NCBI GenBank assembly: GCA_001029295.1
Contig: LDXJ01000059.1
Span: 124,001 to 188,000 of the forward strand
From: Peptococcaceae bacterium CEB3
GTDB lineage: Bacteria > Bacillota > Desulfitobacteriia > Desulfitobacteriales > Desulfitobacteriaceae
Direction of reading: 5' to 3'
Length of the DNA: 64,000 nt
In this document: in pieces, positions 18,689 to 59,834 of the stretch
Layout of the letters: each line of letters opens with the position of its first letter
How positions within the stretch are numbered: position 1 is the first letter of the stretch
Notes under the pieces: generated by a model
What the model was told of the DNA's origin: nothing
Seen by the model: the letters and a program-made list of their open reading frames with translations, nothing else
The model's database searches: none
Translations under genes and position numbers: made by a program

Positions 18689-20053
18689 TTGGCAATATTC
18701 AGCTCTCAAGCGGTAGCCGGACAGGGGGGGAAGGTCATTAGAAAGATTGAACCAGGTTATAACCAGAAACTCAATAAGGAGTATAACTTGAGATTAATTC
18801 TCAACCTTATTCGGATGCGAGAGACAGTCACTCGCATTGAGTTAGCCGATCTCACCGGGCTGAGCACGGCCACGGTGTCCAATCAGACCAACGCTTTACT
18901 GGGGATGGAACTGATTCGCGAAGTCGGGCCCGGAGAAGGAGCGGCAGTCGGCCGCAAGCCTATTCTTCTCGAACTCAAGGAGGATGCCCGTTTTGCCCTT
19001 GGGGTAGATGTAGGGCGCACGGGGTTGACAGGTATCATCACTGACCTAAAGGGCCAGGCCAAGGTCAGAAAGAGGATTGAAAAGAAGGTTTTCTTGGGCG
19101 AAGACGACTTGCTGGCTACGGTAGAAGGGTTAGTCGAGTCCTTGATCCGGGAAGCACGGGTGGAGCGAAAAAAAATCGTCGGGCTTGGCATTGTGGCCCC
19201 CGGTCCGCTGGTGCGTTGGGAGGCGGAGAAGGATATATTGTCTGCGGGGATGGGCGACAAATCTTTTAGGTACAAGGCACCTTTCGACTGGTCCGAAATA
19301 CCCTTGGCAAAGACGATGGAAGAAAGAACGGGGTTGCGTGTCTTTGTCGATAACGATGCCAACGGTGCCGCTTTAGCCGAAAGGTGGTTCGGTGGAGCGA
19401 AAGACTGTGACAACTTTGTGAACGTCATTGTCGGTAGCGGTGTTGGCGCGGGTGTTCTGATTCAGGGACAGTTGTATCGCGGCGAAGACGGTTTGGCGGC
19501 GGAACTGGGACATACCACCGTCAATGTGGACGGACCGCACTGCCAGTGCGGGAACTATGGTTGTTTGGAATTATACGTTTCTAATGATGCCGTGTTGGAT
19601 TATGCCCGGGCGCGCCTGGCGGAGAATGGTGCCAACAGTTCCTCTTTAAGGCCTGCGTTGGAGTCAGGAAAATTAAGCGTGTACGGAATTTTTGAGTCCG
19701 CAGCCCAGGAAGATCCAATTGCCTGTGAAGTTGTGGAGAGGAGTTTAAAATATCTGGGGAGTGGAATGGTCAATATCGTTAACTTCTTTGACCCGAACTT
19801 CATCTTTCTCAGTACCCGCGAGATGCCGGTACCGGACATGAACCGGATGATAAGGCCCATCCAAAAAATGATTGAGGAGCGGGCATTTTCTGTCGCTGCC
19901 CGGCGGGTCAGGTTAATAGCCAGCTCCTTGGGAGAAGATGGACCTTTGCTCGGCGCCGTCACATTGGTCTTAAACTATTTCTTTACATCATCGGACAATC
20001 TTGATGTTAGCGAGGGGGAAAAGCAGAGTGCTCAAGGCAGAATCTCAGGTTAG
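18689..20053 (+). CDS. ROK-family transcriptional repressor
   Basis: 454-residue NagC/XylR-type regulator. The winged HTH is near residues 30-85 (TRIELADLTGLSTATVSNQ). The sugar-binding ROK fold shows VDNDANGAAL, the metal-site histidine in AAELGHTTV, and the zinc motif CQCGNYGC. The N-terminal HTH shows it is a regulator, not a glucokinase. TTG 18689 is the apparent start but has no good ribosome site, so the first 20 residues are uncertain. It overlaps the permease gene and is preceded by two matching palindromes. It probably represses this sugar cluster until the imported sugar or its phosphate binds. Confidence 0.88.
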   Translation: MAIFSSQAVAGQGGKVIRKIEPGYNQKLNKEYNLRLILNLIRMRETVTRIELADLTGLSTATVSNQTNALLGMELIREVGPGEGAAVGRKPILLELKEDARFALGVDVGRTGLTGIITDLKGQAKVRKRIEKKVFLGEDDLLATVEGLVESLIREARVERKKIVGLGIVAPGPLVRWEAEKDILSAGMGDKSFRYKAPFDWSEIPLAKTMEERTGLRVFVDNDANGAALAERWFGGAKDCDNFVNVIVGSGVGAGVLIQGQLYRGEDGLAAELGHTTVNVDGPHCQCGNYGCLELYVSNDAVLDYARARLAENGANSSSLRPALESGKLSVYGIFESAAQEDPIACEVVERSLKYLGSGMVNIVNFFDPNFIFLSTREMPVPDMNRMIRPIQKMIEERAFSVAARRVRLIASSLGEDGPLLGAVTLVLNYFFTSSDNLDVSEGEKQSAQGRISG

Positions 20054-21023
20054 GAAGAAAATCGATAAGGAAAAACGGACGGGAAGTCTGGGTGAAAGGC
20101 TGGGGTTACTGGTCGCGCTCATATTGCTGGTGGTGATCTTTGGTTATCTTTCGCCGAACTTTCTCACTCTTACCAATATTTCCGATACGCTGCTGTCCTC
20201 CTCATTGATTGGGATAGTGGCGGCCGGGATGACCATTGTCATTATCAGTGGTGGTTTTGACCTATCGGTCGGGAGTAATATGGCGTTGACTGGCGTGATT
20301 GTCGGCAGCATGTTGCATAATGGGCTGCCCCAGGGGTTGAGTATTATTGCCGGCCTGTGCGTGGGTGTTGTGGTGGGGTTGGTGAATGGGTTTTCCGTCG
20401 CCAAGCTCAAGATCAACCCCTTGATAACCACCCTGGCAACTATGACCATCGTGCGCGGATTGGCATACATTTATTCGAATGGCACATCTTACGGCATCTA
20501 TGGCACAAAACCGGTATTTCCTAATTTCGGGTTTCTGGGTGTGGGGCATTTGTTCTACATTCCCATGCCGGTGGTGCTGATGATTGTAGTGAGTGTTGTC
20601 ATTTACATCGTGCTGAACCATACGATCTTTGGCCGTGAAGTTTACGCGCTGGGCGGAAATCAAGAAGCCGCACGTGTTTGCGGTATCCAGGTGGAAAAAA
20701 TGCAGATAATTATTTATCTTCTCACGGGCATCTTGGCGGCTTTTGCCGGTATCGTTTTGGCCTCCCGGCTGAGTGCCGGAATACCGAGCGCCGGGAATGG
20801 GTATGAACTGAATGCCATTGCGGCAGTGGTGTTAGGTGGCGCCAGTCTCGCGGGGGGGAAAGGAAGGGTTGAGGATACTATCCTGGCGGTTTTGGTCTTG
20901 GGGGTGCTAGGTAATGGCTTTGTGTTGATGGGACTGTCCAGTTTCCTCCAAGATGTCGCCCGCGGTGCGGTGTTGTTGTTGGCCGTGGGCATTGACCAGA
21001 TGAGGCAGAGGAGGGCAGTATGA
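20028..21023 (+). CDS. Ribose-type ABC transporter permease (RbsC family)
   Basis: 331-residue inner-membrane permease with about 8-10 hydrophobic segments. It has the family stretch GGFDLSVGSNMALTG and the late motif NAIAAVVLGGASLAGG. GTG 20028 with GAGGGGG upstream is chosen; the in-frame ATG 20001 lies deeper inside the ROK gene. It overlaps the regulator by 26 bases and precedes the ATPase by 1 base. It forms the importer with the next two genes. Family substrates are pentoses, hexoses, inositol and similar compounds. Confidence 0.92.
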   Translation: MLKAESQVRKKIDKEKRTGSLGERLGLLVALILLVVIFGYLSPNFLTLTNISDTLLSSSLIGIVAAGMTIVIISGGFDLSVGSNMALTGVIVGSMLHNGLPQGLSIIAGLCVGVVVGLVNGFSVAKLKINPLITTLATMTIVRGLAYIYSNGTSYGIYGTKPVFPNFGFLGVGHLFYIPMPVVLMIVVSVVIYIVLNHTIFGREVYALGGNQEAARVCGIQVEKMQIIIYLLTGILAAFAGIVLASRLSAGIPSAGNGYELNAIAAVVLGGASLAGGKGRVEDTILAVLVLGVLGNGFVLMGLSSFLQDVARGAVLLLAVGIDQMRQRRAV

Positions 21024-21024
21024 G

Positions 21025-22527
21025 ATGGCCGATCAGGCGGTACTCAGACTTGAGGGAATCAGTAAAGCGTTTCCGGGTGTACAGGCCTTAGAATCTGTCT
21101 CCTTGGATGTAGGGAAAGGGGAAATCCTGGGTTTGGTCGGGGAAAACGGAGCCGGAAAGTCTACACTGATCAAGATGATATCCGGAATGTATGTCCCGGA
21201 TCAAGGTCAGATCTATTTTCAAGGTCAGGCTGTTAGAATTGAGTCGCCGCGCAGAGCCCGGGAGCTTGGCATTAGCACTGTCTACCAGGAACTCGCCTTA
21301 TCACCCTATTTATCGGTGGCGGAAAATATTTTCATGGGTAGGCTGCCGAAGCGATGGGGGGGCTGCGGAATCAATTGGCGTCAGCTCTACAGTCAAACCC
21401 GGGAACTCCTAGCGGAAATAGAGATTGATCTAGCCCCGCGCCTCCCGGTGGAAAAGCTGAGCGTTGCTTACCGCCAGCAAGTGGAGATCGCCAGGGCGCT
21501 GTCTGGCAACGCTAGAGTCATTATTTTCGATGAGCCTACGGCCGTACTGACGGAGGAGGAATCCGTTGTCCTCTTCAGGAATGTCCGCAGATTGGCGGCC
21601 AGAGGGGTGGCGATCATCTACGTTTCTCATCGCCTTGCTGAGGTACTGAACCTGTCAGATCGCATAACCTGTCTTCGGGACGGCAAGGCGGTAGGTGCGA
21701 TGACTAAAACGGAGGCCAGCTATGACGGTATTGTAAAGCTGATGGTGGGAAGGGAACTAGACAAAGATCTATTCACCAGGGACGCAGCCCCACAGAGGGA
21801 CGTGGTGTTGGAGGCAGAAAGGCTGTCACAGGGAACACTACTCAAGGAAATCAGTTTTGAGCTACGTCGAGGGGAAGTCCTCGGCTTGTACGGTCTTGTT
21901 GGCTCGGGACGCACTGAGTTGGCCCGGCTTCTATTTGGTCTTGCTCGCAAGTCCGGTGGCTCTGTCAAGATAAAAGGTCGTGTGGCCAATATTCAAACGC
22001 CGAGGACGGCCATTAAGTGTGGAATGGGTTTTTTGCCAGAGGAGCGGCGCAGCCAGGGCCTGGTGCTGGAATTGGATGTGGCCAAGAATATGAGCCTGGC
22101 TAACCATAGCTACTTAACACGTTGGGGATTCTTGCGCTCGGGTGAAGAGAAACGGATCGTTCAACGGGGCATCAAAGAGCTTACGATAAAGACTCCGGGT
22201 TTGCGTCAAAAAGTGGCCAACCTCAGCGGCGGAAATCAGCAAAAGGTCATCTTGGCCAGGTGGCTGACTAGAATGCCCAAACCGGACATTCTTATCCTTG
22301 ACGAGCCTACACGGGGCGTAGACGTCGGCGCCAAGGCGGAGATACACCGTTTGATCCGGGAACTGGCCGGCCAGGGCATGTCAGTGCTCATGATCTCGTC
22401 AGATTTGCCGGAAATCCTCAGCGTGAGCGACCGCATTTTGGTCATGCGGGAAGGGCGGCTCGCTGGCGAAATCAGTCAGCATGACGCCACAGAGGAGGTG
22501 GTGGTTACTTTGGCCACCGGTACGTAG
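21025..22527 (+). CDS. Sugar ABC transporter ATPase, double domain (RbsA family)
   Basis: 500-residue ATPase with two nucleotide-binding domains. Domain 1 has Walker A GENGAGKST and Walker B IIFDEPTAVL. Domain 2 has a degenerate P-loop (GLVGSGRTE), the strong signature LSGGNQQKVILA and LILDEPTRGVD. The degenerate second P-loop is normal for the RbsA/MglA family. It is cytoplasmic and energises the permease encoded directly upstream. Confidence 0.94.
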   Translation: MADQAVLRLEGISKAFPGVQALESVSLDVGKGEILGLVGENGAGKSTLIKMISGMYVPDQGQIYFQGQAVRIESPRRARELGISTVYQELALSPYLSVAENIFMGRLPKRWGGCGINWRQLYSQTRELLAEIEIDLAPRLPVEKLSVAYRQQVEIARALSGNARVIIFDEPTAVLTEEESVVLFRNVRRLAARGVAIIYVSHRLAEVLNLSDRITCLRDGKAVGAMTKTEASYDGIVKLMVGRELDKDLFTRDAAPQRDVVLEAERLSQGTLLKEISFELRRGEVLGLYGLVGSGRTELARLLFGLARKSGGSVKIKGRVANIQTPRTAIKCGMGFLPEERRSQGLVLELDVAKNMSLANHSYLTRWGFLRSGEEKRIVQRGIKELTIKTPGLRQKVANLSGGNQQKVILARWLTRMPKPDILILDEPTRGVDVGAKAEIHRLIRELAGQGMSVLMISSDLPEILSVSDRILVMREGRLAGEISQHDATEEVVVTLATGT

Positions 22528-22695
22528 AGGTCGTCAGCCTGGAGGGAACCCGAGGGTTTACCCTGTCCTTCCGGGACGGGCAGGCGAGAGGAATTCCTTT
22601 GCGAGGGGGGTGATGGAGGAATTCGACAAGAAGTAGTCCTGAGGAAACAAAACGCGGGGAGGGTCTCTTAAATCGAACGAGAAGGGGAGAAAAAG

Positions 22696-23715
22696 ATGGT
22701 TTGGAACAAGATGCTTAGGAACAAGATGCTTGCGAAAAAGCTGGTATCCGTTTTTGCCCTGTTAATGATTCCTCTGTTGCTTGTTGCCGGCTGCGGCCAA
22801 AATGCTGCCGGGGGGAGCAAGCCGCAAACCAAGACGATTGTCGGGTATGCCGTTATGCGCATGGTGGACGAGTACTGGGATAACCAAATTCAAGGCATGA
22901 AGCAAGCAATCAAAGATTCGGGTCTCCCAATTGAACTGAAGGTTGCCGACAACAACAATGACGGGCAGACGACCTTGCAGAATGTACAAAGTTTGCTGGG
23001 CATGGGAGCCAAGATACTTATTGTAAGCAGTCCGGATGCCAAGGTCGGAGGCGCCATTATGGACTTGGCCAAGGCGAAGAACGTACCTGTCATTGCCTCA
23101 GACGTACCTTTGCAAGGAGCTTATTTCCTGACGCATGACGACACGGAAGCCGGAAAAATCGCGGGTCAGTATGCCGGCAAGTATTTTAATGAGAAGTTCA
23201 AAGGGCGCAAGCCGGTGGTGGCTTTGCTTACCCAGCTTTCCTTGGAGCAAATCCTGGGGAAAAGAGTGCAGGGATTCGAAGAAGGATTCAAAAGTGAAGT
23301 CCCGAACGCCAAGTTCTTGCCCGAAGCTGATGCCCAGGGCTTACGGGAAAACGCAGCCAACGTGATGAACGACCTTCTCACGGCCCATCCGGACATCAAT
23401 GTTGTGTTTGCCATCAATGATGATGAGGCCATGGGTGCAGCCTCCACAGTTGAAGCTAGGGGGCTCACGGGCAAAGTCGCGGTGTTTGGCCAAGGCGGGA
23501 CGGGAGAATCCAGTTTTCAGGCTTTGTTGGATCCCAAGAGCCCGTTCATAGCTACTGTCGCTTTTCAACCTTTTGAACATGGCGTAACCGGCATTAACAA
23601 GTTGGTCATTCCTCTTTTGCACGGAAAAACGCCTCCCCAGACCGTTCTTTCACCGCTAAAACTTGCCACGAAGGAAAACGCCGCCGGTTTCTTGAAAGAA
23701 TTTAAGAAAAAATAA
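22696..23715 (+). CDS. Sugar ABC transporter substrate-binding lipoprotein (RbsB family)
   Basis: 339-residue lipoprotein. The signal peptide ends in LLVAGC, with the lipidated cysteine at residue 33. The mature part is the two-lobe type I periplasmic binding fold of ribose/galactose binding proteins. GAGAAGGGGAG precedes ATG 22696; in-frame ATGs at residues 6 and 11 come from a 12-base direct repeat in the first codons. It belongs with the permease and ATPase. The ligand is a monosaccharide or polyol; nothing in the sequence fixes which one. The 168-base gap before it shows only weak GC-rich hairpin potential. Confidence 0.93.
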   Translation: MVWNKMLRNKMLAKKLVSVFALLMIPLLLVAGCGQNAAGGSKPQTKTIVGYAVMRMVDEYWDNQIQGMKQAIKDSGLPIELKVADNNNDGQTTLQNVQSLLGMGAKILIVSSPDAKVGGAIMDLAKAKNVPVIASDVPLQGAYFLTHDDTEAGKIAGQYAGKYFNEKFKGRKPVVALLTQLSLEQILGKRVQGFEEGFKSEVPNAKFLPEADAQGLRENAANVMNDLLTAHPDINVVFAINDDEAMGAASTVEARGLTGKVAVFGQGGTGESSFQALLDPKSPFIATVAFQPFEHGVTGINKLVIPLLHGKTPPQTVLSPLKLATKENAAGFLKEFKKK

Positions 23716-23732
23716 GCAAGAATAGAAATGTT

Positions 23733-23770
23733 GGGTTCCGGAAAGGGATGTAGCTTCCCTTTCGGAACCC
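23733..23770 (+). terminator. Strong intra-operon hairpin after the binding protein gene
   Basis: About 15 bp of near-perfect stem (GGGTTCC...GGAACCC with one bulged G) and a 6-base loop, without a following T-run. At this place it more likely acts as an attenuator or mRNA 3'-end stabiliser, giving higher binding-protein levels than the downstream enzymes. Confidence 0.6.
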
Positions 23771-23792
23771 ATCCGGAAAGGGGATTTGTCAA

Positions 23793-24203
23793 GTGCCACT
23801 CTTGGAGCGTTTAAGGTCAAAAGACGCAGGTTATCAGCCGTTGGTTTTAGCCGGGAGCTGGCAGGTCGCCGTCTTGAACTTCGCGGAAGAGCAGGCCCCT
23901 GAAAACTTGCGCAAGGTTGATTCCCATACGCTGACAGATGAGGTCTTTGTTTTACTGTCCGGAAAGGCGGTCTTAATTGTCGCGGAGGACGAGGGGGAAG
24001 GGTTGAGGTTTTACGGTAAGAGCATGGAACCGCGCCTGGTCTACAATGTTCCGGTTAAGACATGGCACAATATCGCCTTGGCTCAAGATGCCGAAGTCTT
24101 AATCGTTGAGGACAGGGACTCGCACTTGGGCAACTATGAATTTCGTGAACTTACGGCTGCCGAATACGCCGCGCTTCAAGGTGAGCTGAAGAAATACTTT
24201 TAA
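23793..24203 (+). CDS. Cupin-like protein
   Basis: 136-residue protein with an inferred cupin beta-barrel: HTLTDEVFVLLSGKAVLIV resembles cupin motif 1 and YNVPVKTWHNIAL motif 2, with H, E and H as possible metal ligands. GTG 23793 follows GGAAAGGGG. It lies between the binding protein and the kinase in the same operon. Small cupins in sugar operons can be isomerases, epimerases or sugar-binding accessory proteins; I cannot choose. Confidence 0.65.
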   Translation: MPLLERLRSKDAGYQPLVLAGSWQVAVLNFAEEQAPENLRKVDSHTLTDEVFVLLSGKAVLIVAEDEGEGLRFYGKSMEPRLVYNVPVKTWHNIALAQDAEVLIVEDRDSHLGNYEFRELTAAEYAALQGELKKYF

Positions 24204-24222
24204 TCGAGTCAGGAGAAATCAT

Positions 24223-25215
24223 ATGCTAGCGGTAATTGGCAATACTGTCTTGGATCTACACTTAAAGAACGTTGATTTGCCCCAAGCTGCCGGAGATGAG
24301 TTCACAGGCGGGAATTTGATTATGTCCTCGGGGCCGGTGATGCCGGCTATGGGCGGCAATGGAGCGGATGCCGCTTACGTTTTTGCTGCCCTGGGGGGCG
24401 AGGTGACTCTGTTCAGTGCCATCGGAGCGGATTGGGCTGGCCGGTTTGTCGAGGAGCGCCTGGAAAATGAGGGGGTTTGCCTGGACGGACTTTACAAAGA
24501 CACAAGGGCTTCTACTTCCACCAATGTAATCCTCACCGACGCAGCCCACAACCGTGTGTCTTTCTTTTACGGGGGGGCGGACGCCCAGTATGGTTTGGAA
24601 AAAATCAACTTAAACCTGCTCAGCCGCCACGAGGTCGTGCTGGTTTGTGGTATACCTCTCATGCCGGCGTTACGGGGCTCCTTGGGTGAGTTGCTGCGAT
24701 GGATTAAAGAAAAAGGACTCAAAATCGCACTTGACATTGGTCCTGCCATCGACGGTCGGGCGATGGGTCTCGGTGAACTGCGGTCCTGTCTCTCCAGTGT
24801 GGATTACTTGATCGGGAACATGGCGGAATTAGGAGCGCTTACAGGTGAGAGGGGGAAAGAGGAAATTGTCTCTCAGCTGGCAGACAGCGCTTTCAGAAAG
24901 TGGGTGGTGATGAAGCAAGGGCGTGATGGTGTTAGTTTGTACCATCTGGCTGCGAGGCAGGAATTCTACTTGCCCGCGTACCCTGTGGAGGTGAAAGGGA
25001 CGGTTGGAGCGGGGGATACCTTTAATGCTGTCTTTCTCTGGGCTCTCGCCCACGGGCTTGGGGAAAGAGAAGCGGCCGATCGCGCCTGTGCCGGCTCAGC
25101 CGGGGTGGTGGCCCGCGGTGGCCTTACCGAACCGCCGCGGTTAGAGGAAATAAAAGACTTGATGCACGCTCGCGAGAAGGCAAATCGGGATAATCAACGA
25201 CTTAGTGTGAGCTAA
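24223..25215 (+). CDS. PfkB-family sugar kinase
   Basis: 330-residue kinase of the ribokinase family. It has the N-terminal GNGADAAYVFAALGG glycine-rich stretch and the anion-hole/base motif TVGAGDTFNAVF. ATG 24223 has AGGAG upstream. It would phosphorylate the sugar brought in by the neighbouring ABC importer. The unusual first strand (MLAVIGNTVLDLHL) and MSSGPVMPAMGGNG do not match a characterised subgroup that I can name. Confidence 0.88.
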   Translation: MLAVIGNTVLDLHLKNVDLPQAAGDEFTGGNLIMSSGPVMPAMGGNGADAAYVFAALGGEVTLFSAIGADWAGRFVEERLENEGVCLDGLYKDTRASTSTNVILTDAAHNRVSFFYGGADAQYGLEKINLNLLSRHEVVLVCGIPLMPALRGSLGELLRWIKEKGLKIALDIGPAIDGRAMGLGELRSCLSSVDYLIGNMAELGALTGERGKEEIVSQLADSAFRKWVVMKQGRDGVSLYHLAARQEFYLPAYPVEVKGTVGAGDTFNAVFLWALAHGLGEREAADRACAGSAGVVARGGLTEPPRLEEIKDLMHAREKANRDNQRLSVS

Positions 25216-25232
25216 ACACGGGGGTGAGGAAA

Positions 25233-26291
25233 ATGTCTGAAATGACTTCATATCAAAGGTGTATGGCCGCCATTAGTTGGCAGAGACCGGATCGGGTGCC
25301 TGTGATACCGCAAAACTCGGATATGGCAGTCGCACTGTCAGGTTATGATATGGTTGAGTGCTCCAAAGACGGCCGCAAGCTAGCCCTGGCCATGATTGAG
25401 TGCCAGGAAAGGTTTGGCTATGACGGGCACATGATGGGCCCGGATGCCGCAATCCTGGCGGAGGCCCTGGGCTGTCCGACTGAGTACCGCCCACAAGATC
25501 CGCCCGCGGTTTCCGGGCCTGCCCTGGAGAAACTGGAAGATGTCGACAAACTTAAACCAATTAATCCATATAAGGATGGGCGGTTACCGCAATGGCTTAG
25601 AGCTATCCAAACTTTGGTCGAAAAGAGCGGGGAGAAGGTGTTCATTATTGGCCGGGCGGATCAGGCCGGATTCACACTTGCCGCTCTCCTGCGCGGGCTG
25701 GAACCCTTTTTGTTGGACATTGCCATGGGGGAGAAATTGGATCTTGTGCACAAACTGATCCGATTCACTAACGAATGCCATATAAATTTAGCGAAAGCGA
25801 TGAAAGAGGTGGGGGCCCATTTGACGACTTGTGGCGATGCTTTTGGCGGTCCCTCCATTGTCGGCCCCGACGTTTTCCGGGATTATGTGTTTCCCTATGA
25901 AAAAGAGGCTAGCCGAATAATCCGTAAGGACATCGGGATTCCTTACTCTATTCATATCTGCGGCAAAACCGACGCCATTCAGGAACAGTGGGTCGAGACC
26001 GGGGCTGACGTATTTGAAGTGGACCATCTAACAGATATTCGCCAGCTCAGGCGCCTGTCCCTTGGGAGGACGTCTATCTTGGGTAATCTGAACACTGACA
26101 TGTTGGCTGCCGGTACCCCGCAAGAGGTAGAAACGGCTTGCCGGGAGTTATTTGACGTGATGCTTCCAGACAGCGGATTCATCCTTAGTTCCGGATGCAG
26201 TATGTTGGCCGATAGTAAACCGGAGAATCTTGAGGCCATGGTTGAGGCTGCCCGCCGGTACGGAGCGTACGGAAACGGGGGGGTTAGATGA
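25233..26291 (+). CDS. URO-D-superfamily corrinoid methyltransferase-like protein 1
   Basis: 352-residue TIM-barrel protein of the uroporphyrinogen decarboxylase superfamily. It carries H241-x-C243 (IHICGK) and C322 (SSGCSM), the His-x-Cys...Cys zinc motif that activates thiols or other nucleophiles in MtaA, MtbA and related methyltransferases. HemE-type decarboxylases lack this motif. The position in a sugar operon, one gene before a second paralogue and three before a corrinoid protein, suggests methyl transfer to or from cobalamin. ATG 25233 is preferred over GTG 25224, with GGGGTGAGG upstream. Substrate is unknown. Confidence 0.8.
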   Translation: MSEMTSYQRCMAAISWQRPDRVPVIPQNSDMAVALSGYDMVECSKDGRKLALAMIECQERFGYDGHMMGPDAAILAEALGCPTEYRPQDPPAVSGPALEKLEDVDKLKPINPYKDGRLPQWLRAIQTLVEKSGEKVFIIGRADQAGFTLAALLRGLEPFLLDIAMGEKLDLVHKLIRFTNECHINLAKAMKEVGAHLTTCGDAFGGPSIVGPDVFRDYVFPYEKEASRIIRKDIGIPYSIHICGKTDAIQEQWVETGADVFEVDHLTDIRQLRRLSLGRTSILGNLNTDMLAAGTPQEVETACRELFDVMLPDSGFILSSGCSMLADSKPENLEAMVEAARRYGAYGNGGVR

Positions 26292-26292
26292 A

Positions 26293-27423
26293 ATGTACAC
26301 GGCAAGAGAGCGGGTTTTGGCAGCCCTGAACCACAGCCAAGCTGATCGTGTCCCTTTGGCTTTAGGGGGTAGTTGGTATGGGGTGACAGATAACTTATAT
26401 TTTAATGTGTTGAAGAAAGTTGGGCTTGAGCCTAGTGTCCCGCCGTTCAGACCGAAGTTGAGCCACACAGTCAACTACTACGACGATCGGTTGTTGAGTG
26501 CATTGGATGTTGACATCCGGCATATCTGGCTGGGATTTTCGGAAAATGGGGCTCCGCCGTCCGGCGGCGGCACGGACAACTGGGGGATCGAATGGGTCGA
26601 GACAGAAGGATACCGGGGAGCCAAGAGCCATCCCTTGGCGAACGCGACGATTGACGACTTGGATAAATACAATTGGCCCGGGATGGAAGGGCTCGACCGG
26701 GGGCAGATCCGGGCAAGGATTCAGGAAATTCGCAGGAGCGGTGAGTATGCGATTGCGGGGCGTGCCGTTAATTCCTATGGGCTGTTCGAACTTTGTTGTC
26801 TATTGCGCGGGCATGAGCAATTCAATGTGGACCTGTTGATCGAACCGGATTTTGCCCGGGCTTTGGTGGAGAAGGTAGCCGATGTTTTCTATCGGCTCAC
26901 GGACTGTTACTTGGACGCAGCCGGTCAAGACATCGATATATTGGAACTTCCGGGTGACGATTACGCGGACAACCGCGGGCTTATGATCTCACCGCAACTG
27001 TTCCGAGAGTTTTTTGCTCCGCATTGGCAACGTCTGATCGCGCTCATTAAGAGCCGTTCCCCCGAAATAAAGGTGGTTTTTCACAGTGACGGGGCCATCT
27101 CCGCTTTATTGGAAGACCTCATTGCCATCGGAGTTGATGTGGTGCACCCTTTGGAACCACTGCCGGTTACGGACCAGGCCGCGGTCAAACAGGCTGTTCA
27201 AGGGCGCTTGGTCATTCTAGGCGGGGTCGATATTAAGGAGGCGTTAAGCGGGAGCCGGGATGCTATTGCTGTGGAGGTCCGGCAGCGGTTGGCAAATTTG
27301 GCGCAGGGGGGCGGCTACATTTTCGCTCCTTCCAATCACCTGCAGCACGATATTCCACCGGAGAATTTGATAACTTTATATAGAGAAGCGTCTGAACTGG
27401 GTCGATATCCCTTGACGTTTTGA
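26293..27423 (+). CDS. URO-D-superfamily protein 2, variant zinc site
   Basis: 376-residue URO-D-fold protein. At the zinc position it has H264-S-D266 (FHSDGA) instead of His-x-Cys, and the C-terminal Cys position reads APSNHLQHD, so the metal or nucleophile site differs from paralogue 1. The motif HPLEPLP resembles members found near methylotrophic and O-demethylation genes. ATG 26293 follows the previous stop at once, so the two are co-translated and may act as a pair, for example substrate- and acceptor-side methyltransferases. Haem synthesis is unlikely here. Confidence 0.75.
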   Translation: MYTARERVLAALNHSQADRVPLALGGSWYGVTDNLYFNVLKKVGLEPSVPPFRPKLSHTVNYYDDRLLSALDVDIRHIWLGFSENGAPPSGGGTDNWGIEWVETEGYRGAKSHPLANATIDDLDKYNWPGMEGLDRGQIRARIQEIRRSGEYAIAGRAVNSYGLFELCCLLRGHEQFNVDLLIEPDFARALVEKVADVFYRLTDCYLDAAGQDIDILELPGDDYADNRGLMISPQLFREFFAPHWQRLIALIKSRSPEIKVVFHSDGAISALLEDLIAIGVDVVHPLEPLPVTDQAAVKQAVQGRLVILGGVDIKEALSGSRDAIAVEVRQRLANLAQGGGYIFAPSNHLQHDIPPENLITLYREASELGRYPLTF

Positions 27424-27517
27424 GAGTGACCCAGGCATGCCTGGGTGGTTGAAAAGCGGTAAAGGGCCTTGTGAAGGATTGCAAGGGTCGAGTGAAGGAC
27501 AGAGGAGTGATGCTGTA

Positions 27518-28309
27518 ATGTATCAAAAGGTTAACGCAGGCCAAAGTTTCCTAACCAAAATGAAAGATATTGCCGGACAACTGCAGGAAACGCAAACGGG
27601 GGCTTTGACCAAAGCAGCCGAGATTTGTGCCGAAGCTATTGTTCACGACAGATTGGCTTTCATTTTTGGAGCGGGCCATTCGGCCATCCCGGTGATGGAA
27701 ATTTTCCCCCGCATCGGGAGCTTCGTCGGTTTCTACCCGATGCTGGAATTAAACCTGTCATATAATTCCCGGGTCGTCGGGGATATGGCGATGCGCCAAG
27801 CTTCTTTCCTGGAGAAACAAGAAGGATACGGAGAAGCGATTTTGCAAAACTACGATTTCTGCCCGCCCGACTGTATGGTGCTCTTTTCCCACTCGGGGAT
27901 TAACGAACTGATAGTCGAGATGGCTCTCGGCGCACGAAAACGGGGGCTCAAAGTAATTGCAGTCACTTCGCTCAGCCACTCCATGGCCCATGCGCCCCGT
28001 CACAGCAGCGGCTTGCGGCTCAGTGAGGCGGCGGATGTGGTACTTGATACCTGTGTGCCCGAGGGTGACGCTTTACTGGAGTTGCAGGGTTTATCCTGGA
28101 GGGTGGCTTCGGCGTCGACCATTGCGGCCTGCTTATTGGCGGATTCCTTAGTGGCAGAAACAGCGGCTGCTTTATTAAGCCGTGGGATGACGCCCTTGGT
28201 GTATCCTAGCCATAATGTGAACAGCTCGCCGGAAGAGATACAGAAGGCTATGGCGCAAGAGGAGCTCGTTCTTCAGGAATTTCGCCGGCGCAGGGCGAGA
28301 GTGGTATAA
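27518..28309 (+). CDS. SIS-domain protein (UPF0309-like)
   Basis: 263-residue sugar isomerase (SIS) fold protein. IFGAGHSA and LFSHSGINELIVE are the two phosphosugar-binding loops; the serine-rich second loop is conserved. SIS proteins either isomerise sugar phosphates or sense them. GAGGAG precedes ATG 27518; the 27-codon extension from 27437 is rejected. The operon context with a PfkB kinase suggests isomerisation of the phosphorylated sugar after demethylation or phosphorylation. The N-terminal helical region is typical for the UPF0309 subgroup. Confidence 0.8.
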   Translation: MYQKVNAGQSFLTKMKDIAGQLQETQTGALTKAAEICAEAIVHDRLAFIFGAGHSAIPVMEIFPRIGSFVGFYPMLELNLSYNSRVVGDMAMRQASFLEKQEGYGEAILQNYDFCPPDCMVLFSHSGINELIVEMALGARKRGLKVIAVTSLSHSMAHAPRHSSGLRLSEAADVVLDTCVPEGDALLELQGLSWRVASASTIAACLLADSLVAETAAALLSRGMTPLVYPSHNVNSSPEEIQKAMAQEELVLQEFRRRRARVV

Positions 28310-28393
28310 AGATCCTTCGTAGGAATTAGTTTGACAAAGCGAGAAAATCACTTGAATTAGTATAAGTGTAGTTAGCCCTTAGGAGGTACAAAA

Positions 28394-29023
28394 ATGTCTG
28401 ACATGCAAGTGATTAAAGAAGCGGTAATCGGCGGCAATGCCGCGAAAGTGAAAGAGAATACAGAAAAGGCCGTGGCCGAAGGGGTAGATGTGGGAATTAT
28501 CCTCAATGACGGCCTCATTGCCGGTATGAATGTGATTGGCGTCCGCTTTAAAAATAACGAAATTTACGTTCCTGAGGTCCTTATCGCCGCCAGGGCTATG
28601 CATGCCGGGATGGCTGTGATCAAGCCCCTGATTGCCAATTCCGGGGTGCGGGAAAAAGGGGTCGTCGTTTTGGGCACGGTCAAAGGGGACCTGCATGACA
28701 TCGGCAAGAATTTGGTAGGGATGATGCTGGAAGGCGCCGGCTATCGGGTTATCGACATCGGGGTCGATAATGCGCCGGATAAGTTCCTGAAGGCGGTGCA
28801 GGAGCACAACCCCCAAATCGTCGGCATGTCGGCGCTCCTGACGACGACCATGAGCCACATGAAAGCCACCATCGAACACCTCGGAGCCTACAGGGACAGC
28901 GTCAAGGTTATGATCGGCGGGGCACCGGTCACGCAGAAGTTTGCCGACGAGATCGGGGCCGACGCATATGCTCCTGACGCGGCCACGGCCGTTGAAAAGG
29001 CGAATCAACTGGTGGCCTCCTAG
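28394..29023 (+). CDS. Methyltransferase cognate corrinoid protein (MtaC/MtbC-like)
   Basis: 209-residue cobalamin-binding protein. An N-terminal helical cap (about 1-88) leads to the Rossmann B12 domain with D99-L-H101-D-I-G (cobalt-ligating His101), followed by MSALLTTTM and IGGAPVT. It would carry the methyl group between a substrate methyltransferase and an acceptor methyltransferase. TTAGGAGG precedes ATG 28394. The preceding 84-base gap holds a TTGACA at 28331 but no good -10 at normal spacing. It is the only corrinoid protein in the window, while five URO-D proteins are present. Confidence 0.93.
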   Translation: MSDMQVIKEAVIGGNAAKVKENTEKAVAEGVDVGIILNDGLIAGMNVIGVRFKNNEIYVPEVLIAARAMHAGMAVIKPLIANSGVREKGVVVLGTVKGDLHDIGKNLVGMMLEGAGYRVIDIGVDNAPDKFLKAVQEHNPQIVGMSALLTTTMSHMKATIEHLGAYRDSVKVMIGGAPVTQKFADEIGADAYAPDAATAVEKANQLVAS

Positions 29024-32868: not shown

Positions 32869-32971
32869 AACATTTGTGGGCAAGGGTGCGAACGGTAGCG
32901 GGGCCCGTTCCGATTGACTCCGGTTGCCTGGGGCGACAACGTCTCAACGTCCAAAGGAAAGGAGAAATGGT

Positions 32972-34003
32972 ATGGCATTGCCAAAAGAAAGGATGGAGCG
33001 GGTTTTTGCCGGGTTGCGGCCGGACAGGATACCGTTCGTCCCTACGATTTATGAGCATGCGGCAGCACTTTTGGGCAAAACCCCCTCGGACCTAGCCCGT
33101 AACGAAGAACTGCTGGTGGACGGTCAACTCGCTGCGTACGAGCGCTACCGGCATGATTTGGTTGTAGTCGGGCTCGACATCTATAACGTTGAAGCGGAGG
33201 CGTTGGGTTGTCAAGTGGACTTTTATACGTCGACGGACATTCCGGGTGTTGTCAAACATGTTTTGGCGGAGGATTCCGGCAAATTGCTGAAATTAACGCC
33301 GCCTGACCCGGAGGTTTCCGCGAGAATGCCGCTGATCATCGGAGCGGCTATGAAGGTTCGGGAAAAGATTGGGACGGAGGTTAACGTCGGCGGTGCCATG
33401 GTGGGACCATTTACCTTGGCTGCTATGTTACGGGGTTTCGAACAGTTCATTTTTGATTTGGTTTTGGAACCGGATTTTGCCGGGTCGTTGCTGGATTTTA
33501 CCACGGCTGTGGGAATCCGGTTCGGGGGAGCGTTAGTCAGAGAGGGATTGGGAGCAGCCATCAACGAGTCTTGGATTGCGCAGCCTCTGCTTTCCCCAGA
33601 TCTTTACCGGGAGTTTGTCTTGCCACGCCATAAAAAGCTAATAGAAGAGATCAAGGACCAGGGCCCCGGGTTTGTTAGTCTGATCAGCGGCGGTGACACG
33701 ACCGCCATTGCCGATGATTTGGTACGAACCGGTTCCGCTATTCTCATGGCAGATTACAACACGGACCAACTCTTGTTTAAACAAAAGGCCCAGGAAGCGA
33801 GGGTGGTTCTGCGTGCTTCGCTCGACTCAAAGCTAATGGAATTGGGTACGGAAGAACAGATTGAGGAGCAGGCCTTGCGAGTGCTTCGCACCTGTGCTCC
33901 CGGCGGGCGCTTTATCATGGGCTGTGGGGTGGTCAGCTATCAGACGGATCCGGCCAGAATTTTGCGGCTAAAAAAAGTCGTTCAGGAATTTCAAGAATTT
34001 TGA
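32972..34003 (+). CDS. URO-D-superfamily protein 3, zinc ligands replaced
   Basis: 343-residue URO-D-fold protein. The His-x-Cys pair of the methyltransferase zinc motif is replaced: the aligned stretch reads L237-I-S239 (SLISGGDTTA), although the C-terminal cysteine C318 (MGCGVV) remains. A canonical MtaA-type zinc thiolate site is therefore unlikely. The gene lies between a LacI regulator and a zinc dehydrogenase, with no corrinoid gene nearby. AAAGGAG precedes ATG 32972. It could have a different chemistry (C-C or C-O bond cleavage or lyase activity) or bind another metal. Confidence 0.75.
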   Translation: MALPKERMERVFAGLRPDRIPFVPTIYEHAAALLGKTPSDLARNEELLVDGQLAAYERYRHDLVVVGLDIYNVEAEALGCQVDFYTSTDIPGVVKHVLAEDSGKLLKLTPPDPEVSARMPLIIGAAMKVREKIGTEVNVGGAMVGPFTLAAMLRGFEQFIFDLVLEPDFAGSLLDFTTAVGIRFGGALVREGLGAAINESWIAQPLLSPDLYREFVLPRHKKLIEEIKDQGPGFVSLISGGDTTAIADDLVRTGSAILMADYNTDQLLFKQKAQEARVVLRASLDSKLMELGTEEQIEEQALRVLRTCAPGGRFIMGCGVVSYQTDPARILRLKKVVQEFQEF

Positions 34004-38722: not shown

Positions 38723-38847
38723 GTCGGAGCATGCACGTTTCTTACACGGGAGGTGGTAAGGTGATTGTCTAGCCTTGAGAGTACACCTTGATCGACTCAA
38801 TCCCGTGGCCGATCTGCTTAGCCTTCTATGGAACATGTAGCAAACTA

Positions 38848-40749
38848 ATGATATTGCGGTATATGGGGGTGACAGGATTGCAAGATGCTTATCCACTGAA
38901 TGACGCGGTTCGGGATTATTTTGGCTCGGATGTCTCGGGAGAGCTGTGGACGGATATTGGAAGGCTTCAGCGACAGGACTACTTGACTGTAATGTTTGGC
39001 ATCGTTGAGTATTTTTCTAAACACATGGACTCCGGCGGAAGGATCATTGATCCGTACGCGCAACGGGAGATACAGTATGCCACACCAGGCTACGCTGCAG
39101 CCGCTGCATTGCTGTTTGACGTGCTGGGCGGCGCCCGGATGTTGGAAACGGCCGCGAAAGCTTTAACGACTTCCCTGCGGGAACTCGTGACCAAGACCTG
39201 CCCCGTTGGAACCAGCAACTTTTTCATAACGATGGTCGTTTTTGCTTTTGAACACCTGCGTGAGCACGTCAGCGATGAGCAGGTCAGGTTTTGGAAGTCT
39301 GAGTTCGCGCAATTGCATTGGCCCCATGTTCATCTACCCACCATTAACAACTGGCATATTATTGCCCTCTCAGGGGAGCAACTGCGCGCCCGAATCGGGT
39401 TGGGCCCAGCCCTTACAGCTACGGAGGTGGACCGATATCTAGCGCCACATTTGGAGCTGTTGACGGATTACGGCATGTACGTGGATCCGAACGGTCCCAT
39501 GGCCTATGACTTATTTACCCGAAAGTACTTGAAGTTAATGTTATTGAATGGTTACGACGGACAGTTTAAGGAACACTTGACCGAGTTTTTGCGTAGGGGG
39601 GATCTTACCTCATTGTTTCTGCAAGGACCGACCGGGGAAATGCCGGCAGGTGGTAGGAGTTCACACCATCAGTGGAACGAAGCGCTACAGTGTTTTCACT
39701 TTGAGACGGCGGCGACGCAGTATGCACTGGCGGGTGATCTGCGTGCGGCGGGAGCGTTTAGGCGGGCTGCCCATTTGTCCCTAGCAGCAGTTCGGCGCTG
39801 GGTCAGGCAGTCCGGTGAGCTGAGTATAGTGAAAAACTGGGCGGACCCGGCGGCTCGCACCGGCTACGAAGTGTACTCGCATCATTCCCAATACAATCTA
39901 TTCACGGCTTATCTGTTGGGCGTAGCGTACGTTCATGTGGACGACACCATTGAGGAAAGGGCTTGCCCCGCGGAAACCGGAAACCACGCAATATGGATTG
40001 AACCGTACTTTCATAAATTGTTTGTCAATGTTCGAGGAAACTACGTGCAGGTTCAGACAAGAGGAGAACCGAGCTATGATCCGACCGGTATTGTGCGTAT
40101 CCAACATAAAGGCGTGTTTGCTCCCCTAGGACCATCGAACGGGGTTCCGACCAAACATGGAAGTGGGATAGCATTCGCTCCCGCGTGGCGCAACCCTCAT
40201 CGCTATATCAACGACAACAACCCACGAAGGTTTACAAGCGAAAGAGATATAGTGAGTGGCGGCACGGTTCGCATGGCAGATCTGACCGACTTTCATTCTG
40301 TGTCAATCGATGCGCATGTAGAGCAACGAAAGGCTGACAAGATCGTTGTTCAAGTTGAGTACCGTGGTACCATGGGTGGTGTTTTCCTCTTGAAAAGGGT
40401 TCTCACGGTTACGCCAGAGGCGGTCATCGTCACGGATGAAGCGGTGGGGCATGTTGACTCCTTTACGGAGGAAATACCGCTATTGGTGTTTGACGGGGAG
40501 CACCGCGTGGACGTGCATTTTGCGGAAAAGCGCCTGGATGCCGCGCTGGGGCAGGACCGATTGGCGGTTTATGTCTTAGATTCAGCGCCCGTACAGTGGT
40601 CGAAACATGATCCGGTTGCTTTCCGTAACGGGATGCTCAGCTTCGCTTCGTATGACACGGTCGGCAGAACAAGCAGTTACTTGGTTTATCTCTACCGGGC
40701 CGCTGAACCGGTTACTGACCAACGTTTGATAGAACTGGGCAAGGAGTAA
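38848..40749 (+). CDS. Large carbohydrate-active enzyme (alpha/alpha-barrel plus beta-sandwich)
   Basis: About 633 residues. The N-terminal two thirds look like an (alpha/alpha) toroid (repeated amphipathic helices, NNWHIIALSGEQLRAR), with a conserved-looking GGRSSHHQWNEA patch and YEVYSHHSQYN as possible catalytic elements. The C-terminal third is beta-rich, like the sandwich domains of heparinase II/III and chondroitin-AC-type polysaccharide lyases. No signal peptide is visible, so it acts in the cytoplasm on imported oligosaccharides. I cannot assign a CAZy family. The start is uncertain: 38848, 38863 and 38788 are all in frame without a good ribosome site. Confidence 0.6.
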   Translation: MILRYMGVTGLQDAYPLNDAVRDYFGSDVSGELWTDIGRLQRQDYLTVMFGIVEYFSKHMDSGGRIIDPYAQREIQYATPGYAAAAALLFDVLGGARMLETAAKALTTSLRELVTKTCPVGTSNFFITMVVFAFEHLREHVSDEQVRFWKSEFAQLHWPHVHLPTINNWHIIALSGEQLRARIGLGPALTATEVDRYLAPHLELLTDYGMYVDPNGPMAYDLFTRKYLKLMLLNGYDGQFKEHLTEFLRRGDLTSLFLQGPTGEMPAGGRSSHHQWNEALQCFHFETAATQYALAGDLRAAGAFRRAAHLSLAAVRRWVRQSGELSIVKNWADPAARTGYEVYSHHSQYNLFTAYLLGVAYVHVDDTIEERACPAETGNHAIWIEPYFHKLFVNVRGNYVQVQTRGEPSYDPTGIVRIQHKGVFAPLGPSNGVPTKHGSGIAFAPAWRNPHRYINDNNPRRFTSERDIVSGGTVRMADLTDFHSVSIDAHVEQRKADKIVVQVEYRGTMGGVFLLKRVLTVTPEAVIVTDEAVGHVDSFTEEIPLLVFDGEHRVDVHFAEKRLDAALGQDRLAVYVLDSAPVQWSKHDPVAFRNGMLSFASYDTVGRTSSYLVYLYRAAEPVTDQRLIELGKE

Positions 40750-55409: not shown

Positions 55410-55536
55410 ACGGGAACGTGTCTGCCCGCTGGGGAGGAGGAATGGTCGGCAAGGGTGTACTGACTGATTCAAAAGTGTCGGCAAGGCAGGGGTTAAAGTG
55501 ATCTGCAAATTTGACAAAGAGGGGGAAAGGATAGTA

Positions 55537-56580
55537 ATGAGGTCAAAAAACATCAAGACGTTGGCGTTAACCGGGGGCATGATCCTGATGTCAGGTCTTC
55601 TACTGATAACGGGGTGTGGTCAGCAGAGCAGCCCAAAATCCAGTAGTACCGGACAGAACCAGAGTGGCCCAAGCATGGTCCTGAAATTTGGTGAGCTCAA
55701 TCCTAAAGGACATCCGATAGTCCAGGGCATGCAAAAATTCGCGGATCTTGTCAAAGAGAAGACGAATGGACGCATTACGGTGCAGCTTTATCCCGGCGGT
55801 ACGTTGGGGAACGAAAACACAGAAATGCAGTCCCTGCAAATGGGAGCTTTGGACTTGTACAGAGCCAACTCCATGACCCTGGCCGACTTCGGGGTCAAGC
55901 AGATGGCAGTGTTCAGTCTACCCTATATCTTCAGTTCGAATGAGCAAATGTGGAAAGTGCTTGACGGTTCTATCGGCCAGCAGCTTTTGCAGGATGTGAA
56001 TCACGCGAACTTGAAGATGAGGGCCCTGGCTTATTATGGAATCGGTTCACGGGACCTTTTCTCCTCCAAAAAACCGATCCGTACCGTGGGTGACCTGAAG
56101 GGCTTGAAGGTTCGTGTTCCTCAGGATGAGGTCATGATGGCCATGGTGAAGGACCTTGGAGCTTCACCGACACCGACCGATTATAACGAGCTGTACAGCG
56201 CATTGCAGTCCGGCGTAGTCGATGCCGCCGAAAACGATCCGGCGAGCTACATGAGTATGTCTTTCTACGAAGTTGGGAAATACCTGACTTTGGACCAACA
56301 TACAGACGCTCCGGGCGTGGTGCTCATGTCCCAGAAGACCTGGAACAAACTCAGCGCTTCCGATAGGAAGATTATTCAGGAATCTGCTTTGGAGTCATCA
56401 CAATATGAGAGGAATGTGGATCACAAAGCAGAACAAGCCGCTCTGACCGCGGCCCAAGCGAAGGGCGTGACGGTCATTCCCGTTCCGGACAAAACGCCGT
56501 GGCAAAAAGCTATGGCTCCACTTTATGTCAAGTATGCCCAGTACCAAACCCTGATCGATCAAATCCGAAATACCAAATAG
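55537..56580 (+). CDS. TRAP transporter substrate-binding lipoprotein (DctP family)
   Basis: 348-residue lipoprotein. The signal peptide ends in LLITGC, then a Ser-rich linker. The mature part has the DctP fold hallmark: GHPIVQGMQKFADLV, then VRVPQDEVMMAMVKDLG with the arginine that binds the substrate carboxylate. GGGGGAAAGG precedes ATG 55537. TRAP proteins take organic acids, often uronates or aldonates, into the cell with a sodium gradient. Together with the Q and M subunits and uxaB this suggests a hexuronate importer. Confidence 0.92.
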   Translation: MRSKNIKTLALTGGMILMSGLLLITGCGQQSSPKSSSTGQNQSGPSMVLKFGELNPKGHPIVQGMQKFADLVKEKTNGRITVQLYPGGTLGNENTEMQSLQMGALDLYRANSMTLADFGVKQMAVFSLPYIFSSNEQMWKVLDGSIGQQLLQDVNHANLKMRALAYYGIGSRDLFSSKKPIRTVGDLKGLKVRVPQDEVMMAMVKDLGASPTPTDYNELYSALQSGVVDAAENDPASYMSMSFYEVGKYLTLDQHTDAPGVVLMSQKTWNKLSASDRKIIQESALESSQYERNVDHKAEQAALTAAQAKGVTVIPVPDKTPWQKAMAPLYVKYAQYQTLIDQIRNTK

Positions 56581-56637
56581 CCGAGACAAGGCTATTCCCT
56601 AGCTGGGTAAGTCCCCTGGAGCCAGCACTCAGCTCAC

Positions 56638-56674
56638 CAACGGGCTGGTAGTTTGGGTTATTACCAGCCCGTTG
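56638..56674 (+). terminator. Intra-operon hairpin between binding protein and Q subunit
   Basis: CAACGGGCTGGTA at 56638-56650 pairs with TACCAGCCCGTTG at 56662-56674 as a 13-bp stem with an 11-base loop, without a T-run. As with the hairpin at 23733, it probably sets the ratio of binding protein to membrane subunits. Confidence 0.65.
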
Positions 56675-56689
56675 TAAATTTCCTGGGAG

Positions 56690-57157
56690 GTGATTGCTCT
56701 GGATAAAGTGATGAGATATTTGGATGTCATAGTTGAGGACCTAGGCATAGCAGCTTTGATCCTGATGATAGTTATCGTCAGTTTTTCCGTATTTTCACGG
56801 TACGTACTGAAAAGCACGCCGCCTTGGGTCGAAGATTCGGCACTGTCCGCTATGGTCTGGTTCGGTTTTTTGAGTATTAGCTACGGGATGCGAACTGACG
56901 CCCATATCCGGGTTACGGTGATTGATAAGTTGATTCCTAATGCGGTTTTCGCGAAAATACTTGATTGGTTTGTCTGGCTTATGCTGCTGGCATTTGGGAT
57001 ATTCCTAATCGTTGATGGCTCCGAAGTCTGCCAATTGACTGCGACCACTATTATGCCCGGACTTATGGTATCTTCAAGTTGGATGTTTGCCGCAGTGCCT
57101 GTTTCCGGGATAGCCATAGTGTTGCAATTGCTGCAGAAAGTGAGGAAAATGGTATGA
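56690..57157 (+). CDS. TRAP transporter small membrane subunit (DctQ family)
   Basis: About 155 residues with four predicted membrane helices and the DctQ motif VFSRYVLKSTPPWVED. The GTG at 56690 overlaps the GGGAGG ribosome site, so the true start may be the CTG at 56699, which has ideal spacing, or the GTG/ATG at 56708/56711. It overlaps the M subunit by 4 bases (ATGA). Confidence 0.88.
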   Translation: MIALDKVMRYLDVIVEDLGIAALILMIVIVSFSVFSRYVLKSTPPWVEDSALSAMVWFGFLSISYGMRTDAHIRVTVIDKLIPNAVFAKILDWFVWLMLLAFGIFLIVDGSEVCQLTATTIMPGLMVSSSWMFAAVPVSGIAIVLQLLQKVRKMV

Positions 57158-59787: not shown

Positions 59788-59834
59788 GTCCGGGGACTAC
59801 TAATTGTAGAAAGTGTTTGCGGAGGTATGGACAA

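Follow-up and report, generated by a model that had tools for sequence, protein, structure and literature searches.

What is the function of an operon that joins genes for the import and phosphorylation of a sugar to genes for corrinoid-dependent methyl transfer? We addressed this question with a 64,000-nucleotide stretch of DNA from Peptococcaceae bacterium CEB3 (contig LDXJ01000059.1, positions 124,001 to 188,000), which is referred to here as the window. The operon (18689-29023, plus strand) consisted of ten co-directional, closely packed genes, from a gene for a ROK-family regulator through a gene for a corrinoid protein, and it belonged to an acetate-forming anaerobe with CODH/ACS genes. 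A first-pass annotation had listed two URO-D genes, a SIS gene, a corrinoid gene, a ROK regulator, a ribose-type importer, a cupin, and a PfkB kinase; all of these were present on one strand, the cupin by a weak match. Our results indicated that the operon is likely to serve the corrinoid-dependent demethylation of an O-methylated sugar or polyol via the second URO-D protein (URO-D2) and the corrinoid protein, where the methyl donor, the direction of transfer, the second acceptor, and the identity of the sugar are what we infer.

The two URO-D proteins had different residues at the metal site. In methyltransferases of this kind, a His-Cys-Cys site is found in enzymes that act on sulfur or selenium (S-type), and replacement of one or both Cys residues is found in O-type enzymes (PMC10418091); some O-demethylases have no metal (PMC13222342). 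Alignment with MtaA (4ay7) and a motif table showed that URO-D1 has the thiol-type His-Cys-Cys residues (H244, C246, and C325). In the family alignment, the corresponding URO-D2 residues were H264, D266, and N348/H349, with an invariant D223 and E175, and URO-D2 and its closest orthologues had His-Asp and Asn-His at the metal-site positions and no Cys. Judged by its sequence pattern (H264, D266, and N348), URO-D2 was O-type. The metal-site patterns therefore suggest that URO-D2 is the better candidate for the O-methyl donor enzyme and that URO-D1 is better suited to a thiol-linked or second transfer.

The AlphaFold model of URO-D2 (pLDDT 89, pTM 0.90) had MtaA (4ay7) as its best Foldseek match, followed by HemE and MetE. 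Hence, by Pfam as well as by AlphaFold and Foldseek, URO-D2 had the URO-D fold of the donor methyltransferases in corrinoid O-demethylase systems. A HemE identity was ruled out because URO-D1 and URO-D2 scored 59 and 25 bits, respectively, against a HemE model with a cut-off of 303, and an annotation artefact was rejected on the basis of the scores and controls. The corrinoid protein was complete, with both B12 domains, intact S and GG motifs, and an intact DLHDIG motif at residue 99, which corresponds to the DxHxxG motif of O-demethylase corrinoid proteins.

To place the operon in its genome, we compared the surroundings (13-20 kb) of 18 URO-D regions with 20 control regions of 20 kb elsewhere. 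At least two sugar genes were found in 12 of the 18 URO-D regions and in none of the 20 controls (Fisher p=6.9e-6). Because the sugar markers were taken from URO-D loci, which favours the URO-D regions, the test was repeated genome-wide with Pfam families. Eight of 13 FGGY kinases (1.1 expected; p=2.6e-6) and 13 of 30 ribose-type permeases (2.6 expected; p=4e-7) were located within 10 kb of a URO-D gene, with p-values that assume independent neighbouring genes, an assumption that is not quite true. The same was observed for 29 of the 35 corrinoid domains (3.0 expected). Chance pairing of URO-D and sugar genes was ruled out by the control regions and the Pfam enrichment.

The partners identified with models were RhaB, RhaI, GalT, GalK, AraB, AraD, FucI, DeoD, a PsuK-like kinase, and a Bmp nucleoside-type importer, and a corrinoid protein was present at nearly all of the sugar-partnered URO-D loci. 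The simplest factor common to these partner sets would be a methylated form of the respective sugar. At the rhamnose, galactose, and nucleoside loci, the URO-Ds observed were all of the URO-D2 class. In the case of the nucleoside locus (L032), where the URO-D gene was flanked by the Bmp importer with DeoD on one side and by the PsuK-like kinase on the other, the gene content suggests 2'-O-methyl nucleosides as the substrate; a gene at this locus was read as PsuG by eye and had no NCBIfam match at the threshold used. Some corrinoid proteins were about 90% identical between loci, and the URO-Ds at those loci were only about 30% alike, which is expected of donor-specific enzymes around a common carrier. 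The window locus belongs to a set of loci in this genome at which related URO-Ds are paired with different known sugar pathways and the corrinoid proteins resemble one another much more closely. The genome at large makes the inference of sugar O-demethylation from one locus much stronger. The operon has several counterparts of the same kind, and the finding therefore extends beyond the coordinates to which the first-pass annotation had pointed.

Relatives in other genomes were identified with a profile search of a genome collection that used a three-sequence alignment. In the resulting tree, URO-D2 was sister to a URO-D of Thermanaerothrix daxensis (Chloroflexota; 50% identity; SH-aLRT 99), and its subclade also contained proteins from galactose, FGGY, ribose-type, and nucleoside loci. 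The neighbouring subclade held the rhamnose-locus URO-D and its Paradesulfitobacterium and Saprospiraceae relatives. The Thermanaerothrix operon encoded an ATP-binding cassette (ABC) importer, a DeoC-type aldolase, a ROK protein, a SIS protein (40% identical to that of the window), a short-chain dehydrogenase/reductase, an FAD oxidoreductase, the URO-D2 relative, a phosphotriesterase-like protein, a 2-keto-3-deoxy-6-phosphogluconate (KDPG)-type aldolase, an activase on the opposite strand, and a corrinoid protein (55%). In Paradesulfitobacterium ferrireducens (Bacillota), which belongs to the same family as the window genome, the gene order was a ribose-type importer, a URO-D (79% identical to the rhamnose-locus protein), a corrinoid protein, a PF00809-like methyltransferase, and an activase. 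The Saprospiraceae relatives (about 50% identity) were followed by a corrinoid protein, methylene-tetrahydrofolate reductase, a PF00809 methyltransferase, and an activase, a gene content that covers every step from URO-D to folate. In two Saprospiraceae genomes, this operon was next to genes for a tripartite ATP-independent periplasmic (TRAP) transporter, a KDPG-type aldolase, and a 2-keto-3-deoxygluconate-type kinase. In another genome (G315), a SIS protein and FGGY kinases accompanied a relative of URO-D2. A close relative of URO-D2 was found in only 5 of 398 Bacillota genomes, including the window's own. The exact operon is thus rare, in contrast to the wider clade.

An O-methylated sugar as the methyl donor, which the first-pass annotation had proposed, was the best reading of this evidence, namely, the recurrence at many sugar loci, the conservation in another phylum, the complete methyl-transfer operons around relatives, and the O-type site of URO-D2; the donor itself is inferred. 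The proposal needs a qualification for URO-D1, whose thiol-type site makes it improbable that both URO-D genes encode sugar demethylases. We suggest that the ribose-type ABC system would import an O-methylated sugar or polyol, and that URO-D2 would position it over the corrinoid protein so that the methyl group passes to Co(I). The methyl-corrinoid protein would be unloaded by a second methyltransferase, either the thiol-type URO-D1 or one of seven unlinked pterin-binding proteins, and the methyl group could then enter the Wood-Ljungdahl pathway, for which the genes are present. An activase encoded elsewhere in the genome would keep the cobalt reduced. PfkB would phosphorylate the freed sugar, and the SIS protein, a member of the NagS family, may act on the demethylated sugar phosphate by rearrangement or dehydration. 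NagS dehydrates N-acetylglucosamine 6-phosphate (GlcNAc-6P) and is a relative of MurQ, an enzyme that splits an ether (PMC12680351); the residues of the NagS site (serines, Arg, Glu, and Asn, as given in PMC12680351) aligned in the window SIS protein.

The 5.3-Mb genome contained the machinery for such a route. We counted 41 URO-D matches, 35 corrinoid-protein domains, 7 PF00809 (pterin-binding) proteins, and 8 activases, and an activase and a pterin-type methyltransferase adjoined the CODH/ACS genes. Because the operon has no PF00809 protein or activase, both would act in trans. Methyltransferase II (MTII) and corrinoid proteins can be common to several systems (PMC13391211). A glycine-betaine MtgC system was rejected because the corrinoid protein scored 231.8 bits against an MtgC cut-off of 370 and no MttB-type gene was recognised in the operon.

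Several observations weigh against sugar O-demethylation. No folate-type second methyltransferase or activase was located in the operon, and the nearest ones elsewhere in the genome were about 75 kb away; both were in the same cluster in the Paradesulfitobacterium and Saprospiraceae operons. The binding protein and the PfkB kinase matched no substrate-specific NCBIfam model. Most of the other sugar-locus URO-Ds kept one Cys (His-Cys and His), and the O-type rule thus suits the window URO-D2 better than its relatives. There was no corrinoid protein near the nucleoside locus, and many URO-Ds of the wider group in Planctomycetota and Armatimonadota had no corrinoid gene in the stretch seen.

Some of these observations would be accounted for if the URO-Ds were sugar-catabolic enzymes without methyl transfer, with corrinoid genes close to them because both kinds of gene are abundant in the genome. 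The many relatives in other phyla without a corrinoid gene in view are consistent with this idea, which we regard as improbable because far more corrinoid domains were close to a URO-D gene than expected, and because the Thermanaerothrix sister and the Bacteroidota and Paradesulfitobacterium relatives are in operons with an activase and/or a folate methyltransferase. It is similarly unlikely that the URO-D/corrinoid module demethylates the aglycone of an imported glycoside (for example, a methoxylated phenolic glucoside) and that the sugar genes process its sugar moiety. Methoxyarenes are known substrates of URO-D O-demethylases (PMC13222342), and the same genome has canonical loci with a PF00809 protein, a corrinoid protein, and a URO-D and without sugar genes. 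However, no glycoside hydrolase was recognised in the operon in Pfam and NCBIfam scans, and the other loci paired URO-Ds with monosaccharide isomerases and kinases (rhamnose, fucose, arabinose, and galactose). In addition, the canonical-locus URO-Ds, which we used as proxies for the characterised MtvB, OdmB, and VdmB, were outside the sugar-locus subclade, though on long branches.

The substrate might instead be a methylthio or N-methyl sugar, with URO-D1 as the donor enzyme acting on a sulfur-bound methyl group. We give this alternative a low probability: the ligands of URO-D1 fit S/Se-methyltransferases, and the URO-D1/URO-D2 pair recurred at C64 and in genome G001, but URO-D2 has no Cys ligands, the surroundings contained no recognisable genes for methylthioribose or methionine salvage, and the URO-D2 class was the only one observed at the rhamnose, galactose, and nucleoside loci. 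Ether cleavage by the SIS protein itself is a possible reaction, in which a 3-O-methyl sugar phosphate would lose methanol by beta-elimination, much as lactate is eliminated by MurQ, and the methanol would enter the MtaB system encoded elsewhere in the genome. Even with the family tie to NagS and MurQ, the aligned site residues, and the methanol methyltransferase MtaB, this account of the operon is very improbable, since it leaves URO-D2 and the linked corrinoid protein unexplained and since the genome has only one strong copy of this SIS type, so that the remaining sugar loci manage without one.

Plant cell walls, algal polysaccharides, bacterial surface glycans, and modified RNA commonly contain O-methylated sugars. 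To our knowledge, the enzymes that demethylate sugars, of the P450 and Rieske types, all need oxygen. Our results suggest an undescribed, oxygen-free stripping of methyl groups from methylated sugars. A route of this kind, if it exists, would account for the removal of these groups by anaerobes, extend the substrate range of cobalamin methyl transfer to carbohydrates, and provide a function for many proteins annotated only as uroporphyrinogen decarboxylase. As the first-pass annotation had proposed, the substrate class would be new: a search of the open-access literature, with preprint servers outside its scope, found no report of corrinoid-dependent sugar demethylation. Chances are about even that a large URO-D clade in Bacillota, Chloroflexota, and Bacteroidota consists of sugar-specific corrinoid O-demethylases, each tied to its own sugar pathway, that pass methyl groups to folate one-carbon metabolism without oxygen and that act on substrates such as O-methyl rhamnose, fucose, galactose, and arabinose-type sugars, sugar acids, and 2'-O-methyl nucleosides. 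As the gene neighbourhoods name candidate substrates, this hypothesis is directly testable.

The genes of the operon and the related loci are listed in Table 1. The start of URO-D1 was 25224 (GTG) or 25233 (ATG); the likelier URO-D2 start left a spacing of 1 base after URO-D1, and the SIS start at 27518 was likelier than that at 27437. A gap of about 1 kb separated the corrinoid gene from the next genes. No Rfam family, and therefore no known riboswitch, was found in the window, and promoter and terminator patterns were not more frequent there than expected by chance.

Table 1. Genes of the window operon and URO-D loci with related gene content.
Feature	Position or locus	Strand	Basis or gene content
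ROK-family regulator, N-terminal extension (helix-turn-helix by resemblance)	18689..20053	+	Pfam ROK 2.7e-61; NagC/Mlc models below cut-off
Ribose-type ABC permease (RbsC-like)	20001..21023	+	Pfam BPD_transp_2 5.2e-44
Ribose-type ABC ATPase (RbsA-like), two ATPase halves	21025..22527	+	Sequence; 40-45% identity to RbsA-type ATPases at other loci
Lipoprotein sugar-binding protein (Peripla_BP_4)	22696..23715	+	Pfam 1.4e-35; best NCBIfam RbsB 1.7e-24, below cut-off
Small cupin-like protein	23793..24203	+	Weak WbuC-type cupin match 1.2e-4
PfkB-family sugar kinase	24223..25215	+	Pfam 1.8e-41; nearest NCBIfam IolC/ribokinase, all below cut-off; PDB YdjH-type 3h49
URO-D1, MtaA/CmuA-like; candidate second methyltransferase	25224..26291	+	Pfam URO-D 1.3e-61; TIGR01463 5.5e-50; aligned with MtaA 4ay7
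URO-D2, candidate O-methyl-sugar:corrinoid methyltransferase	26293..27423	+	Pfam URO-D 2.5e-23; family alignment; predicted fold
SIS_2 sugar-phosphate protein, NagS/UPF0309 family	27518..28309	+	Pfam 2.3e-39; PRK02947 above cut-off; PDB 3cvj, 9eol
Corrinoid protein (methyl carrier)	28394..29023	+	Pfam B12-binding and B12-binding_2; MtgC-like 5.7e-69; DLHDIG motif
Rhamnose locus	C36		ABC importer, rhamnulokinase, L-rhamnose isomerase, URO-D, corrinoid protein
Fucose locus	C30		L-fucose isomerase, FGGY kinase, three URO-Ds, corrinoid protein
Arabinose locus	C38		Ribulokinase, ribulose-phosphate epimerase, FGGY kinase, URO-Ds, corrinoid protein
Galactose locus	C44		Galactokinase, GalT, URO-D, corrinoid protein (C44:6017)
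Nucleoside locus	C42		Bmp-type importer, purine-nucleoside phosphorylase (DeoD), PsuK-like kinase, URO-D
URO-D1/URO-D2-like loci	C64 and genome G001		URO-D1-like, ribose-type importer, URO-D2-like, LacI, corrinoid protein

Elsewhere in the window, a third URO-D (URO-D3, 32924-34003) was located beside a LacI regulator, an alcohol dehydrogenase, and a MalEFG-type importer; it had LISGG in place of the metal-site His that nearly all other URO-Ds have. Two more URO-D-type genes (58648-60869), the second of which (59817) was too diverged for Pfam, were located 3' of the TRAP transporter DctPQM (55498-58458) and preceded M24 peptidase-like and KduI genes. A 653-residue protein without a Pfam match was encoded within a sugar cluster (38788-40746).

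Other observations concerned the related loci. The corrinoid proteins at L021, L022, and L023 (C26 and C33) were about 90% identical to that of the window, with linked URO-Ds about 30% alike; their sequences point to recent copying or gene conversion of the carrier gene. Several corrinoid proteins (L149, L150, L151, and L154) adjoined MttB-like proteins, read by eye, and several additional methyl donors are probably in use in this genome. An ASRT protein (sensory-rhodopsin-transducer family, PF07100; L027:539-961) was encoded upstream of the rhamnose locus, and a similar small protein was encoded upstream of the Paradesulfitobacterium operon. The compact Bacteroidota operon of URO-D, corrinoid protein, methylene-tetrahydrofolate reductase, PF00809 protein, and activase was seen at L042, L044, L050, L051, and L057. 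At L145 and L146 (genomes G117 and G228), close relatives of URO-D2 adjoined an apparent mannose-type phosphotransferase system operon with a sigma-54 activator.

We compared the operon with known systems. Like the CdmBCA chloromethane dehalogenase of Acetobacterium, it combines a URO-D-fold donor enzyme with a corrinoid protein, but the sequence match was remote (E=1.6e-4, family profile), and CdmB shows no zinc and has an aromatic cavity; in URO-D2, by contrast, polar and His residues are conserved. The type 1 mlp gene clusters of Kountz and Balskus also have several URO-D genes and a corrinoid protein and no folate methyltransferase nearby. These clusters are defined by at least two Mlps with a corrinoid protein and the activase Ram and by His-Cys-Cys in the Mlps; in contrast, the window operon had no Ram gene, His-Cys-Cys was present in URO-D1 but not in URO-D2, and the adjacent genes were sugar rather than sulfur genes. 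The SIS protein matched the NagS GlcNAc-6P dehydratase family at the family level (9eol), with conserved site residues, although no GlcNAc pathway genes were recognised at the operon. MtaA, the methylcobalamin:coenzyme M methyltransferase, was the best solved sequence match of URO-D1 as well as the best fold match of URO-D2. URO-D1 kept its His-Cys-Cys residues at about 25% identity; coenzyme M as the acceptor is a feature of MtaA that may not extend to URO-D1.

In its presumed function, the operon resembled the methoxyarene O-demethylases of acetogens (MtvABC, OdmABC, and VdmB) and the archaeal MtoABCD. Unlike these systems, the window operon has a sugar importer and sugar pathway genes in place of an aromatic context, and its folate methyltransferase and activase would be encoded outside the operon. 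Because these two components are elsewhere, the fit to the described acetogen cluster type was incomplete. With a URO-D-fold donor enzyme, a DxHxxG corrinoid protein, an unlinked activase, and a presumed transfer of the methyl group to a folate-type carrier and the Wood-Ljungdahl pathway, the operon would work like a corrinoid O-demethylase system.

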